IMG/VR virus record: IMGVR_UViG_3300032288_000781
Span: 1 to 30,146 of that record
DNA: 30,146 bases
Source of the DNA: a virus
Direction: 5' to 3' (one strand)
Shown in pieces: positions 3,469-27,200 of the stretch. The position numbers and the translations under genes were made by a program. Under the pieces are notes generated by a model. The model saw only the letters and a program-made list of their open reading frames with translations. It had not been told where the DNA came from and made no database searches. Position 1 is the stretch's first letter, and every line of letters begins with the position of its first letter.

Positions 3469-4326
3469 TTATAATACACTATTTTTTACAGTGCCGCAAG
3501 TAATTCTACAATATTCATTGGGATTTTTTGGTATATCTATGTCTGCATCTTCATATGCGGTATTTTTAATATAGCAACAGGGTGTTAATAACCCTTGAGC
3601 AGTTAGATAAACACTGGGAATACTAAGATGCATACAATCAGCAATATCTACAGTTTTATCTACATCAAACATATGTTCTCTAGTTTTAAATTCTTCTACC
3701 CTTTTTATAGTATAAGGTTCTCCCGTTTTATAATTTCTAGCAGGATCAGGAATTCTAATACTGTTTCTTGTATAAAATTTTTTAAATTTCATTGATTGAC
3801 TAAGTCTCAGACAATCTTTTACTTGATGTTTGTTGTGCTCAAACAATAAAAATTGCCACTCTGCAATACCGCCCTCAGTAATAAATGCCTTGGCATTTTC
3901 CATAATCTTATTAAAGTTGGTTCCTTGTCGATGTATTTCATGTACACCTTCAAGACCGTCAATGCCAAAGATCACAGCATGATCTGTTTCCTTTATTATA
4001 GAAGCTAAATTGCTCCACCAAACGGGAGTTTTTAAACTTCCATTTGTGTGTATTCTTATTGTGAATTTTTTTTGAACACAGTATTCAACTAATAACTTAA
4101 TCCAATCACTAGCAATAGGATCTCCAAACGTACCGCACATTTGAACTGTTTTTAAATTAGGTAATTGTTTAACAACTTCTATAAAACGAAGCGGACTAAG
4201 ACTTTCTAGTTTTAGTCCTTCTACCGTACCATAACCATTATTATTTCTAGCACAAGCAGGGCAATGTGCATTACATTTAGTAGTTGGTTCCACATGTAAC
4301 CATGATATTTGATCTAAAGATAACAT
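3469..4326 (-). CDS. Radical SAM protein with SPASM/twitch-type C-terminus
   Basis: This 285-aa protein has the radical SAM cluster motif CNAHCPAC (C18, C22, C25), which binds a 4Fe-4S cluster and S-adenosylmethionine. CGTFGDP (64-70) occupies the GGE-like SAM-contact position, and FGIDGL (120-125) and the HNKHQV stretch resemble a radical SAM/twitch family I associate with marine phages and bacteria. At the C-terminus C231, G245 and C250 fit C-X13-G-X4-C, the start of a SPASM/twitch auxiliary cluster domain. C251, C273 and C277 could supply further ligands. The substrate is unknown; related enzymes modify peptides, nucleotides or cofactors. The ATG at 4326 overlaps the gp47 stop (TGATG), so translation is probably coupled. 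A TTG one codon earlier is a possible alternative start. Its position between gp47 and gp46 is odd, because these are adjacent in T4. Confidence 0.85.
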   Translation of the reverse strand: MLSLDQISWLHVEPTTKCNAHCPACARNNNGYGTVEGLKLESLSPLRFIEVVKQLPNLKTVQMCGTFGDPIASDWIKLLVEYCVQKKFTIRIHTNGSLKTPVWWSNLASIIKETDHAVIFGIDGLEGVHEIHRQGTNFNKIMENAKAFITEGGIAEWQFLLFEHNKHQVKDCLRLSQSMKFKKFYTRNSIRIPDPARNYKTGEPYTIKRVEEFKTREHMFDVDKTVDIADCMHLSIPSVYLTAQGLLTPCCYIKNTAYEDADIDIPKNPNEYCRITCGTVKNSVL

Positions 4327-5339
4327 CAAAGACTACTGTATATTTCCATTAGAATTTTTTTATCGTATGTATTTGTTTCTATAGTTTCAATTTGACTAAT
4401 AACAATTTGATCAACTGATTCAAATGCTGAGTCAATTGGAGTACCATTTAAATCTAGATCTTGTTTATGTGGTATTAAACTAAGTTCTCTTGCACCATAT
4501 TGAGTCAACATAGTTTCTTTAATGAAGTTTGCTTCTTCATAACTTATGGAAATGTCTAAATTTACTCTTGCGTATGTTCGATCGTTTAGATATTTCTCAG
4601 GATTATCAATAAGTTGTGCTAAACTCATAACCCTATATTCGGGGCCTTCGGTCCAGTTAACAAATTCAGGCTCCTTACCCCATTCTAAAATAACTGCTCC
4701 GCGATCATTATCCCATGCGTCGGCAAAATTGTGAGGAAAAGCATTACCGATATAATGTACATTTTTTTGAGTCTGTCTTTTGTGAAAATGACCTGTAAAA
4801 ACTTTATCAATATGATCGAAATCTTCTCGTCTAAGTTCACCGTGGTCAGGCATTTCAACCATTGCGTTCATAAGAAAACGTGGTAGTTCAAAATGACCCA
4901 TTACATAACGATCTTTGATTTTACGCATGTTTTTATGTTCTTCACCAATTAACCACGGAACAAAACAAACGTCCCCTTCGCTGTACTGATCGTTGATTAG
5001 TTGAATATTCTTGAACTTATCGATATATCTAATACTGCTAAGGGTACGTTTGTCTTTATGATATAAGTCATGATTACCTGGAATAAACATGGTTCTTATA
5101 CCAACACTGTCCAATTTTTCTAAACAGCGTAAACTATAATCCATAGTGCTGATATTAATACTATTTCTATTATGATGAAAATCGCCAAGAAATAATATAA
5201 TATCGCAATTACGTTGCTTAGTTAAATTAATAAACCAATCAACGTAACGTTCACAATCTTGATTGTGAATTTGGCTATTGGACTTCATCCCAAGATGCAA
5301 GTCTGTAAAAATAGCAGCACGTTTAAAAAGATTTGTCAT
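4326..5339 (-). CDS. 47: gp47 recombination endonuclease subunit (Mre11-like)
   Basis: This 337-aa metallophosphoesterase matches the T4 gp47 family in length and motifs. Motif I is DLH (13-15), motif II GDFHH (52-56), motif III GNHD (88-91), then MGHF (147-150) and the final GHFH (183-186). These residues bind the two metal ions at the nuclease site. It pairs with gp46 to process DNA ends for recombination and replication and takes part in breakdown of host DNA. The gene lies 37 bp after gp55 and its stop overlaps the start of the radical SAM gene. The three genes and gp46 therefore look like one operon read on the minus strand. The ATG start places the first active-site motif at the expected distance from the N-terminus. 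Confidence 0.95.
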   Translation of the reverse strand: MTNLFKRAAIFTDLHLGMKSNSQIHNQDCERYVDWFINLTKQRNCDIILFLGDFHHNRNSINISTMDYSLRCLEKLDSVGIRTMFIPGNHDLYHKDKRTLSSIRYIDKFKNIQLINDQYSEGDVCFVPWLIGEEHKNMRKIKDRYVMGHFELPRFLMNAMVEMPDHGELRREDFDHIDKVFTGHFHKRQTQKNVHYIGNAFPHNFADAWDNDRGAVILEWGKEPEFVNWTEGPEYRVMSLAQLIDNPEKYLNDRTYARVNLDISISYEEANFIKETMLTQYGARELSLIPHKQDLDLNGTPIDSAFESVDQIVISQIETIETNTYDKKILMEIYSSL

Positions 5340-9600: not shown

Positions 9601-11412
9601 ATGGCACTAGTACAACCTAGCGGAAAAATAGATAAAAATTTAACACCTGAATCAGCTCCCGGCATACGAATTGATTCGGGACCTTTTGTTGGTGTAGTTA
9701 AAAGCAATATTGATGCTAGCAGATCAGGGGCATTGGCAGTTTGGATACCTGAGCTGGGCGGTAAACCAGAAGACCCATCTAATTGGAGAACTGTTAGATA
9801 TGCTAGTCCGTTCTTTGGAGTTACTCCGCGAGATATAAAAGCAAAAGGGCAAGGATTTGTGCCGGACAGTCCTCACAGTTATGGCATGTGGTTTGTGCCG
9901 CCAGATGTTGAAAATCGAGTTATTTGCACTTTCATAGGCGGTGATCCTAATCGAGGATATTGGTTTGCTTGTATACCCGAATGGCCAAACTTCCACATGG
10001 TGCCAGGTATTAGCAGTGGAAAATGGCATGGTGGCGGACCAGAACCATTGGTAGATTTTAATGATCAAGCTGATGGCGCCGAAAGTACAAAATCAGAGTT
10101 TTATAAACGTGCTGTTACTCCGCATGATTATCAAAAACAAGTTTGGGCTCGTCAGGGATTATTACAAGATCCTGACAGAGGGCCAGGAAATAGCAGTGCC
10201 TTTAGAGAAACTCCTAGTCGTGTTTTTGGTATAAGCACACCTGGACCAGAATTACAATTGCCTTCAGGCGAAGAAAATCAACATGCTAAAATGGAAGTAA
10301 CTGGTCGTCAAGGCGGTCATCAATTTGTAATGGATGATGGAGATATAAACGGCAACAGTCAGTTAATAAGATTAAGAACCAGTAACGGTAATATGTTACT
10401 AATGAATGACAGTGCGGGTTTTATATATCTTATTAATAGTCAAGGTAGTGCTTGGTTTGAGATGGATAAAACAGGTAATGTTAGAATCTTTAGTCAAGCT
10501 AAAATTGAAATGCATGCCACTGCTGGATTTTGTTTTGAAACTCCTACAAGTTTTACAGTTTCAGCTGGAACTATTAATTTATCAAGTAAAGGCCCTGTAA
10601 AAATAAGCGGAGCTACTGCTGATCTTATGGGCATGGGCGGCGTAAAAGTAGGCGGCCCAGGTGACTTACATTTGTCCGGTAAAAAAAGTTATCTATCGGG
10701 TAAAAGCTGCGTGGGTATATCAGGTGGCGCACATATAGATATGAAAGCAGGTTGTATTACTCTTAATACTAAAAAAGTTACTGAAGCATCGGCACCTAGT
10801 CCTGCTATGCCTTGTCAAGGTCCTACCCATGAACCATATGGCGGACATCAAGCAGGAAGAACAAATAGTCCTGTTAGTAGTGCAGGTTCGGGTGCAACTA
10901 ATGGTGTGCCTGAAGGAAATTCTGGCACATACGGCGCTGCTGGAAGTTTTGGTATAACACCGCGTACTCCAGGTTATTACGGAGCATATACAAATGCCAC
11001 TGGTCCAATTAAATTTAATCCGGGCTTACAAGGTAGCTATGAAGGTCAAGCTGCTAATCAAGGCACAACAGCATTATTGAATCAATATGATAGAAATTCA
11101 ATTCTATATACTAACGTGAATATTAAATTGCCATTTGCTACTGGAGGCTTTGCTGTTAATGTGAGAGATCCAGAAGTAGCTAGAGTGACAGATTTAACAC
11201 TGGGCGAAAGACAAAATAATCCTGGCGATTTAACTGGGTTAGAAGAAGATCCATTTGCAATTGGTATTACTAATGGGTTAAATGTTTATGCATCACCTGA
11301 GGATGGTATAGCTGCTCTCAGTCTCGCACTTGATTTAATTCAAGCTGACGGGGCAAATACTGTTGAAGAAATAATTCAAGGGTACGTACAACGTAAAGGA
11401 AACGTAATCTAA
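9601..11412 (+). CDS. 5: gp5-like baseplate hub/spike protein, no central lysozyme domain
   Basis: This 603-aa protein begins with an OB-fold region (about 28-130: GPFVGVVKSNIDASRSGALA, VWIPELGG, WRTVRYASPFFG, VICTFIGGDPNRGYW), as in gp5/VgrG spikes. The T4 lysozyme domain that follows in gp5 is missing; residues 140-225 are a linker. Residues about 228-395 form the spike, with short strands such as GNMLLMNDSAGFIYLINSQG and many Gly/Ser-spaced repeats of an intertwined beta-helix. A Gly/Ser/Pro linker (396-530) leads to a C-terminal module with RQNNPGDL (537-544) and YASPEDGIAALSLAL. This matches the first half of the RNNNPGN-type muramidase-like domain, and its second half appears in the next protein. 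The stop overlaps the next ATG (TAATG). gp5 forms the trimeric needle that pierces the outer membrane and wall. Confidence 0.88.
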   Translation: MALVQPSGKIDKNLTPESAPGIRIDSGPFVGVVKSNIDASRSGALAVWIPELGGKPEDPSNWRTVRYASPFFGVTPRDIKAKGQGFVPDSPHSYGMWFVPPDVENRVICTFIGGDPNRGYWFACIPEWPNFHMVPGISSGKWHGGGPEPLVDFNDQADGAESTKSEFYKRAVTPHDYQKQVWARQGLLQDPDRGPGNSSAFRETPSRVFGISTPGPELQLPSGEENQHAKMEVTGRQGGHQFVMDDGDINGNSQLIRLRTSNGNMLLMNDSAGFIYLINSQGSAWFEMDKTGNVRIFSQAKIEMHATAGFCFETPTSFTVSAGTINLSSKGPVKISGATADLMGMGGVKVGGPGDLHLSGKKSYLSGKSCVGISGGAHIDMKAGCITLNTKKVTEASAPSPAMPCQGPTHEPYGGHQAGRTNSPVSSAGSGATNGVPEGNSGTYGAAGSFGITPRTPGYYGAYTNATGPIKFNPGLQGSYEGQAANQGTTALLNQYDRNSILYTNVNIKLPFATGGFAVNVRDPEVARVTDLTLGERQNNPGDLTGLEEDPFAIGITNGLNVYASPEDGIAALSLALDLIQADGANTVEEIIQGYVQRKGNVI

Positions 11413-11609
11413 TGACATCTCCAGTTATTATTACAAAAGATCCAGTTGAAGTTAATTTTATTCAACGTATACAAAATACTTTTGGTTTAGACCCAGAACA
11501 AATTGTAGACGTTAACGATCCTTTGACAAAATTAACACTTGCTATTGCTATTACTACTATTGAACAAGGCGAAAACAATTATAGCTACGATCAATATGTT
11601 AAAGGTATA
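11197..11609 (+). other. Muramidase-like (RNNNPGN) module split across two coupled genes
   Basis: gp5 residues 533-603 contain the family opening (RQNNPG, then a NVYASPEDGIAAL segment and NTVEEIIQGY). The next protein, residues 14-66, contains the family ending: VNFIQRIQNTFGLDPEQIVD, NDPLTK, then IEQGENNYSYDQYVKGI, which lines up with the usual I-x-x-E-N-G-x-N-x-Y end. The gene boundary falls in the middle, where an uninterrupted family member has a variable loop (APPSENDT). Confidence 0.55.
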
Positions 11610-14372
11610 GCAAAAAGCAGCGGAATAGATGCAGCAGATTTAGATGAACAATTAAATGTAACTTCCTTACCTTTTGAAAATAATACAGGCTCAGCAGGAT
11701 TCGTGAGCCCTGCTACGAATTTAATTAGTTCAGGAAGATCTAGTGTGGGATCAGGTGCTAGATTAGATGTAGGAGCATATATTTCTATAACATCAACTCC
11801 TGTTGTGCCAGTCACAATGGCAGAAATAGGTGGCATAGGAAACTATATTCAACGCGGTGTCAACACAGTAACAGGATATTTTGGTGGTGGTACTGCTAAT
11901 CAAAATAATTCAACAACAATAATACCAGGTAATACCAATTCTAATTCCGAAGCACAATATGTATTATTGAGTACAGGAACAAACAGCTGGGGCAGCAATC
12001 CTGCTGCCGTACAAAATCAAATTAATTCAACAATACAATCTTTAACAGACAAAGGATATAATCCAGGCAACATTGTTATGCTGTTGCCTCCTAGAACAGT
12101 TAATGGTACAAGTACTGCATACGATGCTGCTTTAGCTGCGGCACGAGAAAAAGGTATTGCAACTATTAATGTGCCTTCGGACACTGCTGACGGGTTACAC
12201 TATACAGTAGCAGGCAATCAAAGAGTATTACAAGCTTTTAGTGAAGCTACAGGGCAGTCGACTGAAGCTCTAAAAGGAAATACGCTAGTTATAGGTGATA
12301 GTCGAGCAGTTCTAGCAAATAGAGCATTAAATTCTAATCCTGATCTAGCTGTACAAGGATTAAGTGCAGAACAAATATTAAACAGAACACAATCAGTTCC
12401 CACTGCTACTACAACTATTATACCTGGTACGCCAGGATCGGGAGATATAGCAGTAAGAGATTTGCCGCCTCCTGTATCTACTAATCCAGACGGCAGTCAA
12501 AGTGCTACACCATCTCAAAATGCTAATATAATTAATCAAGCTCCTAGTCCAGCAGCAGTTGGTCTTCCTGAAGGTTCAACTGTAACTCCTTTATATCAAG
12601 TTAATAGTAGCGGGCCTACACAATTATTGCAAGTCACTTATAAAAGTCCAGATGGAAATACCAGAATCTTAGATGCAAGAACAGGTGTAGTAAAATCTGA
12701 AAATGGAGAAGTATTAGGTACAGCAAGAGAGGTGCCGTTAGATCAAACTAATCTAAGAACACAAATTGAATCTGGCGGCAGCCCTTCTGGATCTGCTGTA
12801 TTGTTTACACCTGCGGGGCAACAAGAAAATACAGCACAACAGCAAACATTAACTGCAACATATACTGCACCTGGCGGCGAATCATTTAGTGTTACTTCAA
12901 ATGTTACATCTACAGCAAGTCAGCAATTACAGCCATTAGTGGATCGAAACAGTTTAATATCGACTGAGATTACTTCTCTAAGAGAGCAAAATACTGCATT
13001 AAAATCTGAAATATCCGATTTAGATCAAAGAATTCAAGCTGCACAAGCTGCGGGAGAGCCTGTAAGACCTTTATTAATTCAACAAGCTCAGACTCAACTA
13101 CAAATTGTTAACAATCAAGAAAGAATAGTTAATTTAGGTGCTGAAAAACAAGCTATTGATGCTAAATTAGAAAATCCTTCGCAGCCTGTAGGGGAACAAA
13201 GCGCAATTTTTAATGATCGAATTAATGAGTTGCAAGCAAAAATAGACAATCCAGAAGGTATTCCTGCTGGAGAATATCTACAATTACGCCAGGAGTATAA
13301 TGATTTAAAAGCTACACAAACGTTGTTGGAAAAACCTTATACAGGCTCATCATCGTCAATCGACAGACCGATTGATGAAGCGCAGGTTGGAACTGTGCGT
13401 CCGATTGTTGGTCCTGATTATGTACCCACTGATTTAAAGGTAGATAAAATTTATGGCATTTATCCTGATATGGATTATAAAGCAGGCACTAATTATAATC
13501 CTTATACCGGGGTTCTTTCGCAAAATGATGCAGCAAGATATGGCGAAAGAACTGGCCCAATAGTAACACCTGACGGCACACGACAGTTAACAGCTGAAGA
13601 AACGAATACTTATAAAGCTAGACTAGCTGACATTGAAGCAAGACAAAACGCATTTCAACAACAGGCAGAAGAACAAAATTTATCACCCAGTCAATATCTC
13701 GAACGTAATCAAGCATTCAATGAAGAAAAATCTTTGCTTATGCAAGAAGCACGAGCTAGCCAAACGTCGTTAGATACTGGAAGCATATTTGTTGCTCAAT
13801 CGAGCCCTAATACTGTTCAAGTTCCTATCACTGATGCTATGGGTAATTTTACAGGTTTTTATGAATCGGTTGAAAAACCTGCTGCTAGTAATCCCATTCC
13901 AAATCCTGCAGGTCCGCAAGTAGATCCTCCGCTTATCACCGAAGGCAAATTTGATAATCGAGTCTTACCATATCAATCGGGTGGTGGTACAACTGAACAG
14001 CCATTTGGTCCATCAGGACAAGTAAATCAAGATTTTTATGGCACACAGCCTGTTACAGCTTACGGTCCCAACGGGGAAGCTATACAGCAAAGTAGTCAGT
14101 ATACAAGTTCAGACACCAGTCCATTAGCATTTAATGCTCCTTCAGGAAATTATAGTTATGGAAATACACAAATGGGTACATTTGGTCCAACCGGTTTTCA
14201 AACTGTTGATAATACTGGTCAAGTAACCAATGTTGCGCCTTCAACTCCTTTTGCAAATAATACGACTGCTGCACCGAGTTCAAATCCAGCAGGTGGTGCA
14301 GCTTCTCCTGCTGCACCGGGCGGAGCAACTGCAAGTGCCGCACAACAACAAGGCATGGCGAAAGGTTGTTAA
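11412..14372 (+). CDS. 986-aa spike-associated protein with permuted SGNH-hydrolase-like domain and coiled coil
   Basis: I do not recognise the full-length protein. Residues 14-66 look like the C-terminal half of the muramidase-like module begun in gp5. Residues about 180-328 look like an SGNH/GDSL hydrolase with its blocks out of order: STGTN (block III, N191), DGLH (block V, D260 and H263), then VIGDS (block I, S297) and VQGLS (block II, G316). TTIIPG linkers (168-173 and 334-339) flank the domain. Residues 505-645 are Gln/Glu/Leu-rich and probably coiled coil (SLREQNTALKSEISDLDQRI). The remainder is low-complexity, rich in Pro, Gly, Ser, Gln and Asn, ending in AKGC with a terminal cysteine. 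The start overlaps the gp5 stop and has AAAGGA 11 nt upstream. Its place after gp5 suggests a tail-tip or spike-bound protein that acts on envelope polysaccharide. Confidence 0.65.
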   Translation: MTSPVIITKDPVEVNFIQRIQNTFGLDPEQIVDVNDPLTKLTLAIAITTIEQGENNYSYDQYVKGIAKSSGIDAADLDEQLNVTSLPFENNTGSAGFVSPATNLISSGRSSVGSGARLDVGAYISITSTPVVPVTMAEIGGIGNYIQRGVNTVTGYFGGGTANQNNSTTIIPGNTNSNSEAQYVLLSTGTNSWGSNPAAVQNQINSTIQSLTDKGYNPGNIVMLLPPRTVNGTSTAYDAALAAAREKGIATINVPSDTADGLHYTVAGNQRVLQAFSEATGQSTEALKGNTLVIGDSRAVLANRALNSNPDLAVQGLSAEQILNRTQSVPTATTTIIPGTPGSGDIAVRDLPPPVSTNPDGSQSATPSQNANIINQAPSPAAVGLPEGSTVTPLYQVNSSGPTQLLQVTYKSPDGNTRILDARTGVVKSENGEVLGTAREVPLDQTNLRTQIESGGSPSGSAVLFTPAGQQENTAQQQTLTATYTAPGGESFSVTSNVTSTASQQLQPLVDRNSLISTEITSLREQNTALKSEISDLDQRIQAAQAAGEPVRPLLIQQAQTQLQIVNNQERIVNLGAEKQAIDAKLENPSQPVGEQSAIFNDRINELQAKIDNPEGIPAGEYLQLRQEYNDLKATQTLLEKPYTGSSSSIDRPIDEAQVGTVRPIVGPDYVPTDLKVDKIYGIYPDMDYKAGTNYNPYTGVLSQNDAARYGERTGPIVTPDGTRQLTAEETNTYKARLADIEARQNAFQQQAEEQNLSPSQYLERNQAFNEEKSLLMQEARASQTSLDTGSIFVAQSSPNTVQVPITDAMGNFTGFYESVEKPAASNPIPNPAGPQVDPPLITEGKFDNRVLPYQSGGGTTEQPFGPSGQVNQDFYGTQPVTAYGPNGEAIQQSSQYTSSDTSPLAFNAPSGNYSYGNTQMGTFGPTGFQTVDNTGQVTNVAPSTPFANNTTAAPSSNPAGGAASPAAPGGATASAAQQQGMAKGC

Positions 14373-14382
14373 ATACATTATC

Positions 14383-14820
14383 ATGGCATTATACAAAGGT
14401 TTCAGTACAAAAAGTTTTAAGTTTAGCAATCCCAACAACATAGTTGGGTTGTTAGACAATGATTTTGGTCCATATAGTTTAAATGATAAAAATTTAATTA
14501 TTATGGATCTATTAAATCATTTTAATACGAGAAAAGGCGAACGTTTAATGAACCCAAATTTTGGATGTGTTATTTGGGACAAATTGTTCGAACCTTTAAC
14601 ACCTGCATTAAAAAATATTATTGTAAACAATGTTACTGAAATTATTAAATCAGATCCTAGAATTTCTGTATTGAATAGAGTTATTATAACTGAGTCTGGG
14701 GATGGCACAGGTCTATTATTAGATGCTGAAGTTGTTATTAAAAACACTAATGAATTAGTTGCATTAAACGTAAATTTTGATGGCACATCTGGAAAAGCGA
14801 ACTCTATAATTTCATACTAA
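14383..14820 (+). CDS. 25: gp25 baseplate wedge protein (gpW/gp25 family)
   Basis: This 145-aa protein is close to T4 gp25 (132 aa). It opens MALYKGFSTKSF and carries the family core DLLNHFNTRKGERLMNPNFG (44-63), followed by the conserved WDKLFEPLT and an Ile-rich helix-strand segment ending in the beta-hairpin VALNVNF. gp25 forms part of the inner wedge core with gp6 and gp53 and helps to nucleate the sheath. The reading frame extends upstream into the preceding gene, but the ATG at 14383 is chosen because the protein begins there with the family N-terminus. No strong ribosome site is seen, and AAAGG is 18 nt upstream. It lies 10 bp after the 986-aa gene and 49 bp before gp6. Confidence 0.93.
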   Translation: MALYKGFSTKSFKFSNPNNIVGLLDNDFGPYSLNDKNLIIMDLLNHFNTRKGERLMNPNFGCVIWDKLFEPLTPALKNIIVNNVTEIIKSDPRISVLNRVIITESGDGTGLLLDAEVVIKNTNELVALNVNFDGTSGKANSIISY

Positions 14821-14869: not shown

Positions 14870-17800
14870 ATGGCTACTAACAGACAAACAAACCTATTTG
14901 CAGTTGAAGATTGGAAACAGTTATACACTACCTTTAGTGAAGCTGATTTTCAATCATATGACTTTGAAACTATTCGCAAAGTTATGGTAGATTATCTTCG
15001 CACATATTATGCTGAAGATTATAACGATTTCATTGAATCCAGTGAATTTATTGCACTAGTTGATTTGATTGCCTTTCAAGCGCAAAGTCTTGCTTTTCGC
15101 ACAGATTTAAATGCTAGAGAAAATTTTCTTGAAACAGCAGAACGAAAAGACAGTGTTCTAAAATTAGTTAAACAATTAAATTATAATCCCAATCGTAATA
15201 AAGCATCTAACGGTTTATTAAAAATAGTTGGTATTAGTACTACAGAAAATGTATTTGATTATGGTAGCAGAAATTTAAGTCGTACTACTGTTAATTGGAA
15301 TGACTCAACTAATTCTGAATGGGCAAGTCAGTTTAGTTTAATTTTAAATGCTGCTTTTGGTGCAGGACAGCGTGTAGGTAAACCTTACGCCAGTAAAACA
15401 ATCAACGGAATTAAAACTGAACAATACAATTTAGCTATTCCTAATACTGTGACACCTGCTGTATTTCCTTTCAATTCTATAGTGAACGATGTTGCAACTG
15501 ATTTTGAAGTAGTAAGTGCAAGTATTACAAACAGCGATAGTATACTTGAGCAAGAACCTGGTGCAGTTGGTTCTTTTGGATTAATTTTTCAAAATGATGG
15601 TCGTGGTAATTCTAGTAATAATACAGGATATTTTCTTTTCTTTAAACAAGGCACACTAAATGCATTAGATAGTGCCATTACTGAAAAAATTCCAAACAGA
15701 ATCATTAGTATCAATGTAGAAAACATTAATAATGAAGATATATGGTTATATGATTTAGATACCACTGGAAATATTAATTCAGCATGGACAAAAGTTCCTA
15801 ATGTAGTAGGAAGTAATGCTATCTATAATAGTACTGCAAGGGGTATTAGAACTTTATTTTCAGTAAACACTAGAGCAAATGATCAAATTGATTTAGTTTT
15901 TGGTGATGATACGTTTAGTAGTATTCCATTAGGAAATTTTAGAACATTCTTTAGAATTAGCAACGGGCTAACTTACAGAATTAGTCCTGGTGATATTTCA
16001 GGTATAACAATTGTTGTTCCTTATGTTAGCAAAGACGGTCGTCCTGAAAAGCTTACTATAACAGCAAGTTTACAATATACAATAAGCAATAGCAGTAGAA
16101 GAGATTTGATTTCTGAAATCAAAGACAAAGCACCACAAAATTTCTACACACAAGGACGTATGGTTAACGGCGAAGATTATAATATTGTGCCCTATACTAA
16201 TTACGCTGATATTGTTAAAGTAAAATCTGTTAATAGATTTAGTAGTGGTATTAGTCGTTATTTGGATATCATTGATCCTACTGGAAAATACAGCAGTACA
16301 GACCTATTAGGTAGCGATGGCGCCATACATAAATTAGAAACATTAAAGAATTTTAAATTTACTTTTAGTAGTAGAAATGATATTTTAAGAACTATTTTTT
16401 CTAAAGTTCAACCTATTATTAATAGCAAAAGTAATTTACATTTTTATTATGACAAATATCCCAGTGTCAACTTAACTAGCCAAGCAATACAATGGGTTCG
16501 ACAAACAGATGATGTTACAACTAGTACTGGATTCTTTATACAAGTTGGCGGAACTAGTTATGAACAAATTGGATACTTTACAACTAGCAATTTAAAATAT
16601 TTGTTAATTAATAGTTTGATTAAATTCACTGCACCCGCTGGTTATTATTTTGATAGCAGTAATAGTTTAATATTGGGAACGCCAACACAAACAACTGATA
16701 AAAGAGAGATATGGGCAACAATTAAAAGTCAAATTGGCAATGGTAGTCAGGCATATTATATTGCGGGAAGAGAAATTGGTGCTGTAACAATTAGCAATAC
16801 TATTCCAACTGGGGCATTAATTACAGAAGTATACGCACCATACACAACTAATTTGTCAAACAGTGTGCTAAACACAATGAGTTCTTTTATTTTAAACAAT
16901 GTTGAATTTGGTTTAAGATATGACTTTACTTCCACTACTAGCGGCGATCCCTGGAAAGTAGTACCAATTGTAAGCATTGATCGAGAAGGTCCATTTGATA
17001 TTACAACTGCTGGAAATACCAGCGGAGATACATCGTGGTTGTTACTTTTTACAACCAATGGGGTAGAGTATACAGTTGAATATAGAGGTTTAGATTATAC
17101 TTTTACAAGTTCTAACAGTGTTCGTTTTCTAAATACCAATCCAACACAAGTATATGATAGTCGTACTAATTCCATTATTAAAGATAATATTAAATTGTTA
17201 CAAACTAATCTTAATAAAGAAGGCACTTCTAAACTTCCTAGAAATGTCATACTTCAAATTTATGAAAACGAAGTTGAAACTGACGGCTATATAGACAGTA
17301 CAAAAGTTAAAGTTACCTTTCCTACCGGAGCTAACAGTGATTTACCATTAGACCCTGCAATATTTTCAGATGTTGTTGCTGAAGGAAGTTATGTATTTTT
17401 TGAAAAATATTTAGACTACGATAACCTATTACGATATCGATTGTTAGATACAGGAGCAGTAAATTACCTATATCAAACAAAAGTAGACATTGAAAATGTT
17501 CGAAATAACTTCCCTGCAGGAAAGCTATTCTTTGCTACAGTTGATAAAATGTTTTATGAATTACAATCAAACGGAACAGTTAATACTGTAGTAGATGTCA
17601 GCAACAATTATCGTTATTACGAAGGTCGTCAAGATTTAATTTTTCAATATCGTCATAACGCAAGCGACAGCAAACGCATTGATCCGGCAGCAAGCAACTT
17701 AATTGATTGTTATATTTTAACACGCAGTTATGACGAAGCTTATAGAAATTATATTACAGATTATACATTAACATTGATGGAACCTGCTCCGTTAGATAGT

Positions 17801-18277
17801 GTTACTTTGAATAGCACATATGGACAACTCTTATCATTAAAAATGATTAGTGATGAATTAATTCTAAACAGTGGTTTATATAAACCTTTGTTTGGATCTA
17901 AAGCAAAACAAGCATTGCAAGCTAATTTTCAAGTAGTAAAAAATCCCAGTGCTAATATAAGTGATAATGAATTAAAGAGCGTTATTGTTGAACAAATTAA
18001 CAATTATTTTGCACTTGAAAATTGGAATTTTGGACAAACATTTTATTTCTCAGAGTTAAGTGCATATCTACACAGTAAGTTAGGCAATTATCTCAGTAGT
18101 ATTATTTTGGTACCGACTAATTCTAACAGTGTATTTGGTGATCTTTACGAAATACGTAGTCAACCAAATGAGATTTTAATTAGTGCGGCCACTGTAGATA
18201 ATATTAAAGTAGTAAATGGCGTGTATGTTGGTATAGATCAAAGTGGAATAACAACAGTAAATGCGAATACAATATAA
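14870..18277 (+). CDS. 6: gp6 baseplate wedge protein (long form)
   Basis: This 1135-aa protein is far longer than T4 gp6 (660 aa). The N-terminus is typical of marine gp6: NLFAVEDWKQLYTTFSEADF, then VDYLRTYYAEDYNDFIESSE, ALVDLIAFQAQSLAFRTDLN, and ARENFLETAERKDSVLKLVK with LNYNP. FGDDTFSSIPLGNF and ISPGDISGI in the middle are shared with baseplate J-like wedge proteins, and NGEDYNIVPY is the family element before the C-terminal half. The extra length lies mostly in the Ser/Asn/Thr-rich C-terminal half, which ends with a helical and strand segment NYFALENWNFGQTFYFSELS typical of gp6/gpJ proteins. gp6 dimers form the wedge ring that opens on contraction. It follows gp25, its structural partner, and has its own late-promoter-like site. 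Confidence 0.93.
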   Translation: MATNRQTNLFAVEDWKQLYTTFSEADFQSYDFETIRKVMVDYLRTYYAEDYNDFIESSEFIALVDLIAFQAQSLAFRTDLNARENFLETAERKDSVLKLVKQLNYNPNRNKASNGLLKIVGISTTENVFDYGSRNLSRTTVNWNDSTNSEWASQFSLILNAAFGAGQRVGKPYASKTINGIKTEQYNLAIPNTVTPAVFPFNSIVNDVATDFEVVSASITNSDSILEQEPGAVGSFGLIFQNDGRGNSSNNTGYFLFFKQGTLNALDSAITEKIPNRIISINVENINNEDIWLYDLDTTGNINSAWTKVPNVVGSNAIYNSTARGIRTLFSVNTRANDQIDLVFGDDTFSSIPLGNFRTFFRISNGLTYRISPGDISGITIVVPYVSKDGRPEKLTITASLQYTISNSSRRDLISEIKDKAPQNFYTQGRMVNGEDYNIVPYTNYADIVKVKSVNRFSSGISRYLDIIDPTGKYSSTDLLGSDGAIHKLETLKNFKFTFSSRNDILRTIFSKVQPIINSKSNLHFYYDKYPSVNLTSQAIQWVRQTDDVTTSTGFFIQVGGTSYEQIGYFTTSNLKYLLINSLIKFTAPAGYYFDSSNSLILGTPTQTTDKREIWATIKSQIGNGSQAYYIAGREIGAVTISNTIPTGALITEVYAPYTTNLSNSVLNTMSSFILNNVEFGLRYDFTSTTSGDPWKVVPIVSIDREGPFDITTAGNTSGDTSWLLLFTTNGVEYTVEYRGLDYTFTSSNSVRFLNTNPTQVYDSRTNSIIKDNIKLLQTNLNKEGTSKLPRNVILQIYENEVETDGYIDSTKVKVTFPTGANSDLPLDPAIFSDVVAEGSYVFFEKYLDYDNLLRYRLLDTGAVNYLYQTKVDIENVRNNFPAGKLFFATVDKMFYELQSNGTVNTVVDVSNNYRYYEGRQDLIFQYRHNASDSKRIDPAASNLIDCYILTRSYDEAYRNYITDYTLTLMEPAPLDSVTLNSTYGQLLSLKMISDELILNSGLYKPLFGSKAKQALQANFQVVKNPSANISDNELKSVIVEQINNYFALENWNFGQTFYFSELSAYLHSKLGNYLSSIILVPTNSNSVFGDLYEIRSQPNEILISAATVDNIKVVNGVYVGIDQSGITTVNANTI

Positions 18278-18295
18278 CATAACGGATTGTTAAAA

Positions 18296-21200
18296 ATGGT
18301 TGATAAAAAGTCTATAGAGTTTCTTCCAAAAGTTTTACAAACTAACACTAATCGTAGATTTTTAAATGCTACGTTAGATCAACTTATACAAGAACCTGCT
18401 TTAAGTAAAACTTACGGATATATTGGCAGACAAGATTTAAGTCCAGCATATGCTGCTGGCGATCCTTATGTGCTAGAAAACGATAGTTATAGTCAATACT
18501 ATCAACTTGAACCAGGGCTTGTAATTAACAAGCGTATTTTTAATACAAACAATTTTAAAACTGAAAATGCTTATAACTATGTTGATTTATTAAACTCAAT
18601 TACTAGTGAAGGCGGTTTAACAAATAATCATGACAGATTGTTTGCTAACGAGTATTACAATTATGAAGGATTTGTTGATCTAGACAAACTTGTAAATTAC
18701 GGAAAGTATTATTGGGTACCAAATGGTCCAAAAACTTTAGAAATTAACAATAATAGTTTACCACTACAGCAAGAATATATTATTAGTCGTCCATTGAGTA
18801 CTGATATTATATCAACTACATTGATTAATCAAAATATTGGACAAATTGGTTATAGTGTAGATAAAATTCCTGGTAAGTTTAATCCGGTAATAACTTTAGT
18901 ACGAGGTGGCAATTACAAATTTAAAGTAGGTCAACCCGGACATCCTTTTTACATTCAAACAGAACCAGGGCTGGGCTCTGGTACAAGTTTCCAAAGTAAT
19001 ATCATTAAAACTCAAGTTTACGGAGTACAAAACAACGGGGTCGATGCAGGTACAATTACATTTGCTGTGCCTAAGAAAAATGCACAAGCATTTTATGAAA
19101 CTGTTGAAGTTTTTGAAAACGTTGATATTGTATCCAATTTACCTTATAGCGAGTTACAAGGTGCAAATTACAATGATTTCACCTTAACTAATAGCATCGA
19201 CGGTAATAAGTCATTTGAAACAAAATCTATCATTTTAATAAATGAAGAAGATGACAAGTGGCTAGATGTTGAAGCTGAAAAAAGAAAAGGCATCTGGCAA
19301 ATATCTAATGTTGATGGTACTATTGAATTATCATATGTTAAAGATTGGCCCGCTAATACAAGAATATTTGTTGGCGAAGGTGTCGAGTACGGACATACAT
19401 TTATTCTTAAAGACTCATTGTTAAACATTACAAAAGTGCCAAATATTACAGCTCCTTTAGATACTCTTTATTATCAAGATGGTGTTGACCCTGATGTATT
19501 TGGTATTATTAAATTAGTAGATCAAGGACCAGTTAGTAAAATAGACGTTAATACTATTTTGGGTAGACAAAATTATACAAGTCCCAATGGTGTTGTATTC
19601 ACAAACGGTCTAAAGATTAAATTTACTAGCAAAACTATTCCCGAGTATTATGAAGGCAATGAATATATTATAGAAGGTGTAGGTAAAAATATTGTACTAG
19701 TACCATATGCTAATTTAATTACTCCAGACCCAAACAATCCTAATTTAGGTAACGGATATAGTGATCCAGCTGAACCATATGATACTTTAAATTATGATGT
19801 TAGTTTAAATGCTCCTTTAAGAAAAGACTATATTGTTATTAATCGTGCTAGCGTTGATGGGAACGCTTGGAGTAGAACTAATAGATGGTTTCATGAAGAT
19901 GTAATACGATATGCAGAAACATTTGGTAACCCTACTGGAAATGCTGTATTGGATAATAATCTAAGAGCTATTAGACCAATTATAGAATATGATGCAAACT
20001 TACAACTTTGGAATCATGCAAGTAGATTTGTACAACCAGTAACACTAATTGATACTTTTACTACCAATGTTAATAATCAAGTTGAAGGGTTTAGTCCCTA
20101 TGTGTTAATTGATAACAACGGTAACTATTACAGCGACAATGTTGCTTTGGAAGATGATACATTTGTTATTTTTGCTGAAGAACGTTATGAAAATACAAGA
20201 AATAAGATTTACAAAGTAAAAAATATTAAACCTTATTCTTTAGAAGATAAAGAAAAATCTACTACCGCATTTGCTGGTATTACTAAAACTAAATTGAAAT
20301 TTAATACAGTAAACGATTTGTTAATTAACATGAAAGTTATTGGGACAAATATTCCTGATAATACCGTTATTACTGCTATCGATTCTGAATTAGATACAAT
20401 TACTATTAATCATCCGCTGACAGATGATGTTCCAAGCGGGACTGTTATTACGTTTAAATCAGATAATATACAAGTTCATTTGATCCCAGTGCATGAAATG
20501 CAAGAAGGAGAAGGTGTAGTTGCAGTAAGCGGTGTATATAGACAAAATAAAAGTTATTATTGGAAAAATAACGATTGGGTACCTGCACAACAAAAATTTA
20601 GTTTAAATCAAAATCCCTTGTTTGATATTTTTGATTTAGATGGCAATAGTTTTGGAGACTTAAATTATTATCCCAGTAGCAGTTTTGTCGGATCTTCATT
20701 GTTTGGATATAAAATTTCATCTTCAGGAACTGCTGACAAAGAATTAGGCTTTACATTAAGTTATAAAAATGTAGGCAATATTGGTGATATTCAATTTGAA
20801 AATTATTATGATACTGATACATTCACGTATAGCTATCTTAATGCTGATAAAACAGTATTAATTAATAATGGATTCGTTCATGAAATAGCAGACAATGGAT
20901 TCAAATTAAGAAATAATTGGGTAAAAGTAAAAGATTATTCTAAACAATACATTCAAAGAAAATTTGTTGCTACTTTATTTAGAAAGAATAATTTCCCACT
21001 GGATATTGTTTATAACAATAGCTATACAGAAAAAAACTTGTTTGTTTTTGTGAATGGGAAAGAACTAGTTAGAGATACCGATTATGTTCTTTTATCAAAT
21101 CAAAATAAATCCATTATTAGTTTAACAAATGATTTAAATGAAAATGATGTTTTGATAATCAACATTTACGGGGTAAGTCAAAGCCTTAAGGAAAATTATA

Positions 21201-24200
21201 CTTTACCTAAAAATTTAACTGACAACAGTGAAAATTATAATTTTGATTCGTTAACATTAGGGCAAATTAGAAATCACTTGATTGAAATGTCTGAATACAG
21301 TTTAGACTTAGTGATCAATGAATTTGGCAATGACAATTTACGTGATATTAATTATAAAATTTTGCCGGGTAAAATTTTACAACATAGTGCAGGCGTTCAT
21401 ATTGCACAATTATTGTTTAATAATGATACTACCAATATTATTAAATCTATAGACTTTAATAGAAAAAGTTATTCTAGATTTAAAGATAGATTTTATTATC
21501 TATTAAGCACTATGGAATTTGAAAATTATGATGATTCTCGTTTTATATTAGACACCATAATGGAAGAAATTGTCATTAATAGTAGTAATGATCAAGCTTT
21601 CTATTTTACTAATATGATACCTTATGGAATAAATCGTTCTATTGAAAATAATTATACAGTTTACGATACAAATTATAGAAAATTTAATCTCATAAATCCA
21701 TATGATATTGATAATGACAGTTACAAGGCTATTTTAGTATATCTAAATAATGAACAACTATTATTAGGTAGAGATTATATTAATAATGGTTCTTTCATTA
21801 CATTAACTGATAGTCTAGAAATTGAAATTGATGATGTATTAAGCATTTACGAATATACTGATACTCGTGGATGCATGGTTCCAGTAACACCAACTAAAAT
21901 AGGATTGTATCCAAAATTTACACCAGAAATCTTTGAAGATAACACATACATTGGTTCTACTGTTAATGTAATTCAAGGCCACGATGGTAGTAAAACTATA
22001 GCATTTGGCGATTTCAGAGATAATGTAATTTTAGAATTTGAAAAAAGAATTTACAATAACATTTCTGTTGACTACGATAATACATCATCTGTAAATTTTG
22101 CAAAAATAGAACCAGGAGCATTTAGAAAAACTGCATATTCATTAAATGAATGGACTCAATTATTAAGTAATTCATTTTTAAGTTGGAGCGGCACTAACGG
22201 CATTAATGTTTTTGAAAACAATATAACACAACAAAACGATCCTTTTAGTTTTAATTACGCTGAAGGTATTGATCGACTATTTGGCGAAAGCGTTCCGGGT
22301 TACTGGAGAGGCATTTACAAATATTTTTATGACACAGATAGACCACATACTCATCCATGGGAGATGATAGGTTATACACAAAAACCAGACTGGTGGGAAG
22401 GTCGTTATGGTCCCTTGCCTTATACTTCAAACAACTTAGTTCTTTGGGGAGATATGGAAAAAGGATTAATATATCTTAACGGCATCGACAAGTATGTAGA
22501 TGAAAGATATGTTCGACCTAACTTATTAAAAATCATTCCAGTTGATGAATATGGAAATCTATTGTCTCCAATTAACTGTTTAATGGGTAAATGGAATCAA
22601 CAAACAGCTGGAGAAAATTGGCGTTTTGGTGATCAAAGTCCTCAAGAAACTGTTTGGAGACGTAGCAGCGATTATCCTTTTGCAGTGCAGATAGCATGGG
22701 CATTGGCTAGTCCAGCAGAGTATTGCGGTTTATCATTAAACACTAAAGACACAGCAAGAATTGCAGAATTAGATCAAATCATTAATAAAAAAACTGGAAA
22801 AAGAAAATTTAATTTATTAGTTACTGATATAGATCAATTTGTCCCAGGTAGTAATATTTGGATTAGAGATAGACTAGCAGATTCAGGTATTGATATAAAA
22901 ATTAATTTTAATGAAATTTTTGAAAATTATAAACTTAATTTAGTTTATAAAACAAGCGGTTTCACTGATAAGAAATACTTACAAGTTATTGCAGATCAAG
23001 CAAGTCCTAACAGTACAAACGCAGGTGTATTAATTCCTGAAGAAAATTATAAAGTTGTGCTTACTAAGAGTGCTCCTGTTAGTGTTGTAAATTATAGTGC
23101 AGTAGTAATTCAAAAAGGATCTGGCGTATTTAAAGTTTATGGGTTTGATTTAATTAAACCATATTTTACTATATTTCCTCGTCGCTATAATAACAATTTT
23201 AATACTATTAAAATAAGTGAGAGTTCAGCTCAAATCTTTAATGACGATGACAATTCAATTCAAGTAATACCTTACGGTAATAGCTTTACTACTCCTCAAC
23301 AGGTAGTAGATTTTCTTGTCAGCTATGGTTCATATCTTACAGCGCAAGGATTTATTTTTGATAATGTAGAAAATAATTCTACTAATAATTGGGATCTTGC
23401 TGTTAAAGAATTCTTATATTGGTTAGAACAGGGATGGGATGACAATACAGTAATCAGCTTATCTCCTGCAGGAACTAAAATTAAATTTAATAGTCAATTT
23501 GGTATTGTAGACGATTTAACAAATACTTTTAATAATTCTAGAATAATTGACAGTGAAGGGAAATCTTTACAAACTAAAGATTACGTAACATATAGAGAAG
23601 GCACACATTTCGAATTAATGACAAGGGATACTAGCAAAGGTATTCATTTAATAGATTTCACTGTGGTTCTATATGAGCATACTTTAATATTTGATAATGT
23701 TACTGTTTTCAATGATGTAGTATATGAACCTAATTTAGGTAATAGACAATATAGAATAAAATTAAATGGTTTTAAAACTAGACAATGGGACGGTAGTTTA
23801 TATGCTCCCGGATTCTTAGTAAATCACAGACCAGTGGAACAATGGATGCCGGTAAAGGATTATTACAAAGGCGAAGTTGTCCTTCATAAAAATTTATATT
23901 ACGCAGCTAAAAGTTTTACTCCAGGCAATACAAAATTTATTTTCAATGACTGGTATGAAATTAATGGTGATCTTTTAGAAAATCAATTAATTCCAAATGC
24001 GGCATTTAATGCACAACAATTTGAAAATTTTTATGATGTAGATAAATTTGATGTTAATAGATCAGCAGATGACGCTGCTAGAAACTCTACAGGGTTTGTG
24101 CCTCGAAATTATCTAACTAATATGGGATTAGACAATATTAGTCAACACAAGTTCTATTTAGGCATGATAAGAGAGAAGGGTACACAAGCAGCAGTAAATG

Positions 24201-27200
24201 CATTTTTAAGAACAAAACTTCCTTACATTGACAACGATGTTAAAATTGACGAACAATGGGCTATAAGATTAGGCAGCTATGGTGGTGTTACACAAAAATA
24301 TGACATAGAGCTAAGTTTAGATAAAGCTAAACCATTAAACGGCTCCTATGTGATAGAATTAATTGATAGTCAAGATACTAAGAGCAATCTATGGAATTCA
24401 TTTAAGCCAAAAGATCTGTTGATAAAGCCTACTAATTATGATCCAAATATATTTGCAGCAACTAGCGAACACGCTAGAGTTATTGGACAAACTGGACCGG
24501 TGTTGATTGATGAAGTTGCTACTACAGTTCTTAATATCATTAAAATTAATAACATTAGTGGACTAGCAAATATTCTTGGAGAAGGTAGTAGAATTTGGGT
24601 AGGCGCTGATAAAGACAACAGTTGGAATGTCTATAGAATTACTTCTTTAAAAGAAGCTGTAGTAAAAATTAAAGAAGCACAAGTAGTTGGAAATGAAATA
24701 GAGTTTACCTGCAACATTCCGCATGGATTAACTAGTACTGACATTGTTATGATTAGAAATGGCACGGTAGGTAATAAAGCCAAAACTAATCTAAATGGGT
24801 TTTATAGAATAAGCAACGTAGCAAATAGAATCTTTAGAGTTCCAATTTATCCAAATACTGCAAGCGGTTCAGGAAAAATGGATGCACAATTATATGTCTT
24901 ACGTTCAGTTAAGTTTGCAAGTAAAACTGCTATTGCAAGCAACATTCCTGCAAAAGGATGGCGCAACGGTGATAAGATTTGGTATGTTCCAAACGAAGAT
25001 TATTACGAAGTCATTGAGAATACTAGAAAATGGATATTAAATGAATCATTAACTCCAGTGTTTGCTAAAGACTCGGATAATTTTGGCCAAGGAATTGATG
25101 TTAAACCAACACAAGATATAATGATTGTTGGCGCACCCGGCAGAGAAACTAGTGGATCAGTTTATGTTTATAGACAAATAATTGATACTAGCTGGGAAGT
25201 AATAGATAATATTATGCCAGATGATGCTCATGCAGCAAACTTTGGTTATAGTTTAAAATATAATGATCTAGATTTAGCTGTTGTAGGTGCACCATCTAGT
25301 AATGGTAACTTAGGACTGGCTTATATAGTAACAACTACCAGCGAACAAGTTGGAGTTAAACAAGCTATTAATGTAGATGGATTGAGTTCAAATGCAGAAT
25401 TTGGAAAATCAGTTACAGCAAGTCAAGATGGAAAATGGATAGCTATTGGCGCTCCTGGTGTATCAACTGTTTACCTATACAAATATAAAGAAGTTGAAAC
25501 TGCTGTAGTAAGTGCCGATTTGCAAGGACAAGATTACCTACAGATTCCTGCCAGCGCACAAACTCAAGGTTTAACAGCAGGCGATGTTAAAGTTAGATTA
25601 AATGGCAAACTTCTGGTTCCTTATATCGATTATACTTTAGGAACAGAAATTATTTTTGGTGTTCCAACTGACGACGTTGTGAAATTAACATCGTCGCCTG
25701 GTTTTAATGATATTATGGAAATTACATATGAAAGTTGGTATCAATACGTTCAATCTGTAACAAATTCTGAAGCAGCAAGCGAGTTTGGATTCAGCGTGAG
25801 TCTAAGTGTTGACGGAAGTCAACTGGCTGTTGGTGCACCTAAACTTTCAAAAACAGAATTTGGTACTACATATCTAAATGCAGGTGCAGCTTACATATAT
25901 CATAGATCAGTTGAAACATTTATTGCCGACGGTGAAACAGATTCATTTGAATTAGAAAATGTGCCTGTTCTTGAAGACGTTTATGTAAACGGAGAACTAA
26001 CCGAAAATTACACTATAACAAGTAATTTAGAATTAGATGACACTCCTATTATAGGAAGTATTATTACTATTGAATCTAATAACTTTGTATTGTTAGAAGA
26101 AAAAACAGCGCCAGTATTACAAACTAATTTAAAATTTGGGTATAATGTTACTATATGTCCTACTACATGCAGTTTATTTGTAGGAGCTATTGGATATAAC
26201 AATAATACCATCGGTAATGGTGCTGTATATCGTTACATCAATACTGCTAGACTCTACGGTTATATTGCAGGGACAAAACAGCGTCCATTGGTTACTCCTG
26301 GAAAAAGCATAAGAATAAATGGTGTTAAAGTTGTGTTTACAGGTACTACTAGTATCAGTGCCGCACAAAACATTAATGATGCAAATATTCCAGGTGTCAC
26401 TGCTATAGCGTATAATAATTTAAATCTTGTAATACAATCCAACAGTGAAATTGCAAGAGATAAGTTAAAAATTACTTCCACTGATAACAGTGCATTGGAA
26501 GAACTAGGCTTAATCATTTTTGATTTTGATCAAACCATTTTAGCTAACAGTGACGAATATAGCGCAGATTTTGGTAGTAAAATTGTATTAACACCTGATT
26601 CAGGAAAATTATTAATCGGTTCAAATACTGCCAGTAATAATATTAATATAAGATTTGATTACGGAACTACAACGTTTGACGGTAATACAACTCAAATTGA
26701 TGTTGTTAATAAAAGAAGCGGTAAAGCATACCTATACGAATATCAAGCAGAACTTAATGAAACAGCAAGCAGTCATGGCAAATATATTTTAACACAGGGC
26801 ATGTCAACTAACTCATTGCGTAGTAATGATAACTTTGCTACTGGTATTGCGTTAACTGATAATTGGATGATGATTACTGCTCTTCATAGTATAACAGGTG
26901 CCGGAACAGTTTATAGTTTCTATAATAAAACTGGCGAAACAAATTGGCAAGTAATTCGTTCCTCACCCGTGGCAATAGACACTAGACGAGTAGAACGACT
27001 ATATTTGTACAATGATAATACTAAGTCATTAATTGCAGAGTTGCCTATAATTGATCCTGAACATGGATTACCAGTTAGAGCAGCAGCTGAACAAATTAAA
27101 TATATCGTAAATTACGACCCTGCAATTTACACTACTACTCCAAATGCATACAGTTTTTCATTAGACACTAAGAAATCTTGGGGCAAGGAGCATGTGGGCG

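Follow-up and report, generated by a model that had tools for sequence, protein, structure and literature searches.

Within a 30,146-base virus record (IMGVR_UViG_3300032288_000781), analyzed over its whole length and called the window here, a T4-like baseplate gene cluster includes a gene directly downstream of the tail spike that encodes a protein of 986 amino acids (aa). We consider it likely that residues 177 to 336 of this protein form one SGNH-type domain whose circular permutation has its cut between blocks II and III. The domain is probably a hydrolase and probably arose by duplication and truncation. The order of its conserved blocks, III-V-I-II, is a real observation and lies well above chance at the profile level. 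The gene, the domain and the four blocks are placed as follows.

11412 to 14372, plus strand: open reading frame (ORF) of 986 aa, with a conserved N-terminus (residues 1 to 111), the permuted SGNH domain (177 to 336), a coiled-coil and low-complexity C-terminal part, and a final Cys
11940 to 12419, plus strand: permuted SGNH domain, residues 177 to 336 (the extent of the AlphaFold2 model), from profiles, hhalign and the model
11970 to 11984, plus strand: block III, STGTN, residues 187 to 191 (N191), aligning with block III of ordinary SGNHs
12189 to 12200, plus strand: block V, DGLH, residues 260 to 263 (D260, H263), aligning with block V of ordinary SGNHs
12288 to 12302, plus strand: block I, VIGDS, residues 293 to 297 (S297), aligning with block I as a separate second match
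12351 to 12365, plus strand: block II, VQGLS, residues 314 to 318 (G316), aligning with block II of ordinary SGNHs

The original prediction had placed four SGNH motifs at these residues and read their order as a permutation, and the motifs are indeed there: a block I GDS with its nucleophile Ser, the block II Gly, the block III GxN and the block V DxxH are all present, and the order typical of the family, I-II-III-V, is replaced by III-V-I-II. It had also noted no GDS-like motif in the 180 residues before block III; in agreement, a block I-II profile matches residues 284 to 345 (8.6 bits) and nothing in residues 1 to 186. A linker of about 15 residues joins the two halves. Motif order alone is not rare, as a degenerate scan of viral contigs for G-x-N...DGxH...GDS in the permuted order returned 38 stretches. 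None of these had SGNH-profile support above 6 bits with ordinary or permuted profiles, and the one that carries an SGNH-like GTND...DGLHP owes its accompanying GDT to chance.

Profile comparisons carry most of the argument. Searched intact, the 986-aa protein is not recognized as an SGNH by Pfam, PHROGs or NCBIfam; once excised, the domain weakly matches PF13472, and there only its later part (14.5 bits, model positions 62 to 177). Moving the block I-II segment to the front changed the PF13472 match from 13.9 bits over model positions 63 to 177 to 19.2 bits over positions 1 to 177. For a closer profile, a seed query was modeled on the short phage and alphaproteobacterial SGNH type and real members were then found; 80 ordinary-order phage SGNHs were taken from viral contigs, and a hidden Markov model (HMM) was built from 69 sequences (68 of the 80 plus P0002). 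This HMM matches the intact protein twice and in circular order, with model positions 26 to 126 at residues 163 to 274 followed by positions 2 to 49 at residues 291 to 337. In HMMER it matches the rearranged domain once, continuously, at 22.1 bits, compared to 10.6 bits for the domain as given.

Controls place these scores well above chance. When the block I-II part was shuffled, none of 2,000 versions reached 22.1 bits (maximum, 21.0; 99th percentile, 17.5). Placing any of 142 other stretches of the 986-aa protein in front gave at most 16.8 bits. With most of the suitable cut points, rotated profiles yielded single matches of 15.6 to 18.9 bits, compared to 10.0 bits for the unrotated profile; with the profile rotated between II and III, 2,000 block-shuffled copies of the protein scored no higher than 8.6 bits, and the best other ORF among 1,239 scored 2.9. 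Against a profile of 41 ordinary-order SGNHs, hhalign assigned the domain as given a probability of 62.4% (score 32.3, E 7.3e-5) and its rearranged form one of 93.8% (score 46.8, E 1.7e-7). The comparison of given and rearranged orders that had been proposed as a check on the permutation therefore came out clearly higher for the rearranged order in hhalign, HMMER and PF13472, and whole-domain profile homology to the SGNH superfamily was found in circular order only.

A single-sequence AlphaFold2 model of the domain was poor (predicted local distance difference test [pLDDT], 44.7), and its Foldseek matches were discarded as meaningless. A confident model was obtained from an alignment (A3) into which ordinary phage SGNHs were entered as separate, unaltered C-terminal and N-terminal halves, with no row pairing the two. 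Residues 177 to 336 then reached a pLDDT of 89.3 and a predicted template modeling score (pTM) of 0.88, with strands and helices alternating throughout. In a sequential structure search this model matched HAD-type Rossmannoids over nearly its full length, with Z scores of up to 8.6, barely above the tool's stated background. The SGNH sheet has the strand order 2-1-3-4-5; when it is cut between strands 2 and 3 and renumbered, the order becomes 5-4-1-2-3, which is that of HAD, and HAD-type matches are therefore what the permutation predicts. Foldseek returned nothing below an E value of 1e-3 for the confident model in the PDB, and a sequence search of the PDB gave a hydrogenase as its sole match, which we attribute to chance. 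With support from the profile tests, from the lack of a block I upstream and from a confident model, the permuted SGNH reading of residues 177 to 336 is supported, and we regard it as well supported that they form a permuted SGNH-type alpha/beta domain. A three-layer alpha/beta/alpha packing with the catalytic residues meeting in one site, as in other SGNH enzymes, would be the predicted arrangement.

Several points weigh against the reading as a whole. Even after rearrangement, the PF13472 score of 19.2 bits is below the Pfam gathering cutoff of 32.9. The query itself fills 60 rows of alignment A3, almost always in trimmed form, and the rows were chosen since MAFFT lined up their catalytic columns. 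No SGNH chain was present among the 1,000 chains re-aligned in the sequential structure search, an absence that we do not count against the fold because the aligners follow chain order. The residue after GTN is S instead of the usual D, and that after DGLH is Y instead of the usual P. No homologues of the whole protein or of the domain turned up in direct searches of phages, plasmids, viral contigs and genome contigs, and the same databases, together with the degenerate motif scan, yielded no second intact III-V-I-II copy, so that catalytic conservation within a permuted lineage cannot be shown. Finally, the argument from a repeated hexapeptide, which bears on how the permutation arose, is post hoc.

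Among the alternatives, the one that survives best, unlikely in our estimate, is that the permuted SGNH fold is genuine and catalytically dead or vestigial, retained in the tail tip for a structural or glycan-binding role. The deviating residues beside the catalytic blocks would fit such a loss. So would the variability of the slot that this gene occupies, which in one relative (L084) may hold no recognized enzyme, and a possible cyanophage counterpart, gp010 of ACG-2014d, in which GDQ replaces GDS. All four of the named catalytic and oxyanion positions (S, G, N and D..H) are nevertheless kept in the window protein, and decay would not favor that. We give much less credence to two incomplete pieces without a joint active site, the C-terminal half of one SGNH and, behind it, the N-terminal half of another, both truncated. 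Such a two-piece arrangement would be an intermediate if a tandem duplication were later truncated, and a short linker does join the halves; however, these complement each other almost exactly (model positions 26 to 126 and 2 to 49), and AlphaFold2 folds them as one domain at the pTM given above without paired rows. Least probable of all is a chance set of short motifs in some other alpha/beta (Rossmann-like) domain. In its favor, the motif string does occur by chance in other viral proteins, and HAD-type Rossmannoids top the sequential structural matches. Against it, chance carriers score below 6 bits with SGNH profiles compared to 10 to 19 bits for the 986-aa protein, both halves match over long stretches beyond the motifs alone, and the HAD strand order is itself the permutation's prediction.

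If residues 177 to 336 are a single permuted SGNH domain, its flanks may retain a trace of how it formed.

11913 to 11930, plus strand: upstream copy of TTIIPG, residues 168 to 173, a possible duplication scar
12411 to 12428, plus strand: downstream copy of TTIIPG, residues 334 to 339, a possible duplication scar

TTIIPG is the sole repeated hexapeptide in the 986-aa protein, and one copy sits a little ahead of block III, the other a little past block II, exactly at the two ends that the inferred cut creates. At the DNA level the copies are identical at 15 of 18 bases, the 3 differences all falling at third codon positions. Local shuffles put the chance of a shared hexapeptide in the domain flanks at about 0.0007, a figure computed after the repeat had been seen. 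The order III-V-I-II most likely arose when an ordinary [I-II]-TTIIPG-[III-V] unit was duplicated in tandem and the outer halves of the pair were then lost, a history that would leave the repeat where it is seen. One hexapeptide repeat makes permutation by this route a suggestive reading of the sequence, not a proven one.

The conserved blocks also point to a mechanism, most likely that of other SGNH hydrolases. H263 and D260 would activate S297 for nucleophilic attack, and the oxyanion hole would be formed by the S297 backbone together with G316 and N191. During penetration the domain would probably strip O-acyl groups, O-acetyl being the likeliest, off an envelope glycan met at or below the spike, and it is probably an ester hydrolase of the deacetylase kind. 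As for substrate, we infer that peptidoglycan is the most likely and a surface polysaccharide the second choice; peptidoglycan is favored because related phages carry peptidoglycan lytic enzymes in the same slot. The most far-reaching version combines these proposals into an active SGNH with an undescribed II/III permutation point, formed within the tail-tip slot by duplication and truncation and with the junction repeat still visible, in which the birth of a circular permutant could be read from one sequence. We offer it tentatively, at somewhat less than an even chance.

The slot itself is defined by the genes around the 986-aa ORF.

9601 to 11412, plus strand: central spike (oligonucleotide/oligosaccharide-binding [OB] domain plus beta-helix), of the baseplate hub and tail lysozyme type (phrog_13211, E 1.4e-30; phrog_873, E 0.0028 at residues 532 to 593; PF04717 weak)
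14383 to 14820, plus strand: gp25-like baseplate wedge subunit (phrog_261, E 2.3e-15)
14870 to 18277, plus strand: gp6-like baseplate wedge subunit, used to find relatives (phrog_10646, E 3.6e-285)

In the closest relatives (L082 to L087), whose spikes are 58 to 65% identical to that of the window, the gene order is the same, with the follower between spike and gp25, and the follower begins with the same N-terminus of about 110 aa and carries a differing module behind it. One of them has a transglycosylase-like domain at residues 170 to 234 (L082; 27.3 bits, cutoff 27) and another an SLT transglycosylase at residues 216 to 264 (L085; 30.1 bits, cutoff 21.3), each at a position that overlaps that of the SGNH domain; in L084 no enzyme module was recognized in the slot. 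In more distant relatives the spike-following protein is fused to the spike; a CHAP/NlpC reading, made by eye, of the module in two of these (L004 and L005) had no Pfam support. An alignment of the N-terminal region (A1) revealed no further members of the clade with split genes. Because enzyme modules differ at the same position in relatives, the best reading is that the permuted SGNH occupies an exchangeable envelope-enzyme slot of the tail tip.

Other features of this locus are worth recording. Spike and follower form one ORF in the distant relatives examined (L004, L005 and L008) and two touching or slightly overlapping ORFs in the window (TAATG) and in L082 to L087. A muramidase- or "endolysin"-like phrog_873 domain appears divided between the end of the spike gene (profile positions 354 to 421) and the start of the next gene (437 to 492 in L084; 11412 to 11760 in the window). 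This split is real and not a sequencing error, because the same pair of abutting or slightly overlapping ORFs is seen in the window and in L082 to L087. The protein before gp25, whether it follows the spike or is fused to it, ends in Cys (window 14367 to 14369; -GC, -SC, -KC, -AC or -QC) in 44 of the 45 entries closest in gp25 (L002 to L124), the exception being L120, and the residues before this terminal Cys are low-complexity.

Among the best gp6 relatives for which a genome is deposited, most are phages of 280 to 490 kb, and the window virus is therefore probably a jumbo myovirus. Downstream of gp6, a giant ORF (18287 to 30145, plus strand) of at least 3,953 aa remains open at the contig end; cyanophage ACG-2014d likewise has its 20-kb gene for a virion structural protein at this place, after gp6. 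Two ORFs on the minus strand are of separate interest. That at 680 to 1636, which adjoins structural genes, reads as a putative PstS-type phosphate-binding protein with a signal peptide, and that at 3469 to 4329, between gp46-like and gp47-like recombination genes, has a CNAHCPAC motif and may be radical-SAM-like.

Beyond these relatives, a scan of 50 related phage records for SGNH families gave three partial matches below cutoff in two records (G040 and G050), which are probably due to chance. The top structural match in BFVD was A0A0E3G768, a 962-aa protein of Synechococcus phage ACG-2014d, with 155 columns matched in chain order (E 6e-5); it was not tied to a gene, as NC_026923 contains no 962-aa coding sequence within positions 1 to 50000 and 65000 to 179110. 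Two cyanophage "endolysin" proteins, ACG-2014d gp010 (L258:9997-10455) and that of S-SSM4 (L259:1501-1959), carry the segment HVILTAGSKD...AYVIGDQ...NMSAKAIASS, and residues 290 to 425 of gp010 (940 aa), by sequence the best candidate for the gene behind A0A0E3G768, read in the same III-(V)-I-II order with a degenerate active site. Similarity between gp010 and the window domain is weak and not significant (1.6 to 7.5 bits; hhalign E 0.067, probability 0.8%), and with these profiles no such segment was found in ten other cyanophage equivalents of the gp010 gene. For a permuted fold shared with cyanophages, this amounts to a lead and no more.

Natural circular permutants, which are rare, give evidence on how folds gain new topology. 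If the interpretation given here is true, a single protein, with a further and independent SGNH cut point and what looks like a duplication scar, would allow the duplication-truncation route to be tested. Phage tail tips would also be shown to be places that can exchange a peptidoglycan-cutting enzyme for a de-esterifying one in the same slot, which bears on how phages pass O-acetylated walls or glycans. Because standard annotation overlooks such domains, with Pfam, PHROGs and NCBIfam silent on the whole protein, others may be hidden in databases.

Permuted SGNH-like O-acetyltransferases and esterases of bacteria have been described in AlgX/AlgJ, PatB1 (DHHW family) and WssI, where the order is H-S-G-N, or V-I-II-III (PMC9487903, PMC4148444, PMC10302187). 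Like the window domain, they have an SGNH-type core with rotated blocks, and their substrates or acetyl acceptors are envelope or extracellular glycans. Their blocks are altered (GTSYS or KDS; DxH or DHHW; Tyr or another residue for Asn), whereas the window domain keeps canonical GDS, GxN and DxxH; the marks of the AlgX/AlgJ type, namely the H-S-G-N order, a block V DxH, a block I GTSYS and Tyr for the block III Asn, are all absent from it. Its order is instead N-H-S-G, or III-V-I-II (compared to V-I-II-III in PMC9487903 and PMC4148444), and it lies in a phage virion protein and has about half the length of the AlgX/AlgJ, PatB1 and WssI domains. The closest profile match is to the short ordinary-order SGNHs of phages and alphaproteobacteria (alignment A5: L178 to L257 and L170 to L177), which share its I-II spacing (about 20 residues) and, once it is rearranged, its length class. 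Those proteins have the order I-II-III-V and are mostly free-standing at 126 to 170 aa, whereas the window domain is rotated and embedded in a tail-tip protein. SGNH-type or deacetylating domains are also known from phage tail fibers and tailspikes (e.g., PMC9569702 and PMC8471582) and, like the window domain, are carried by the virion's adsorption apparatus. They sit in receptor-binding proteins, and the window domain is set apart by its location directly after the spike, in a slot that is otherwise lytic. The literature searched holds no report of a permuted phage SGNH or of a permuted SGNH cut between blocks II and III. Permuted SGNHs as such are already known; the cut point and the tail-tip setting are new.
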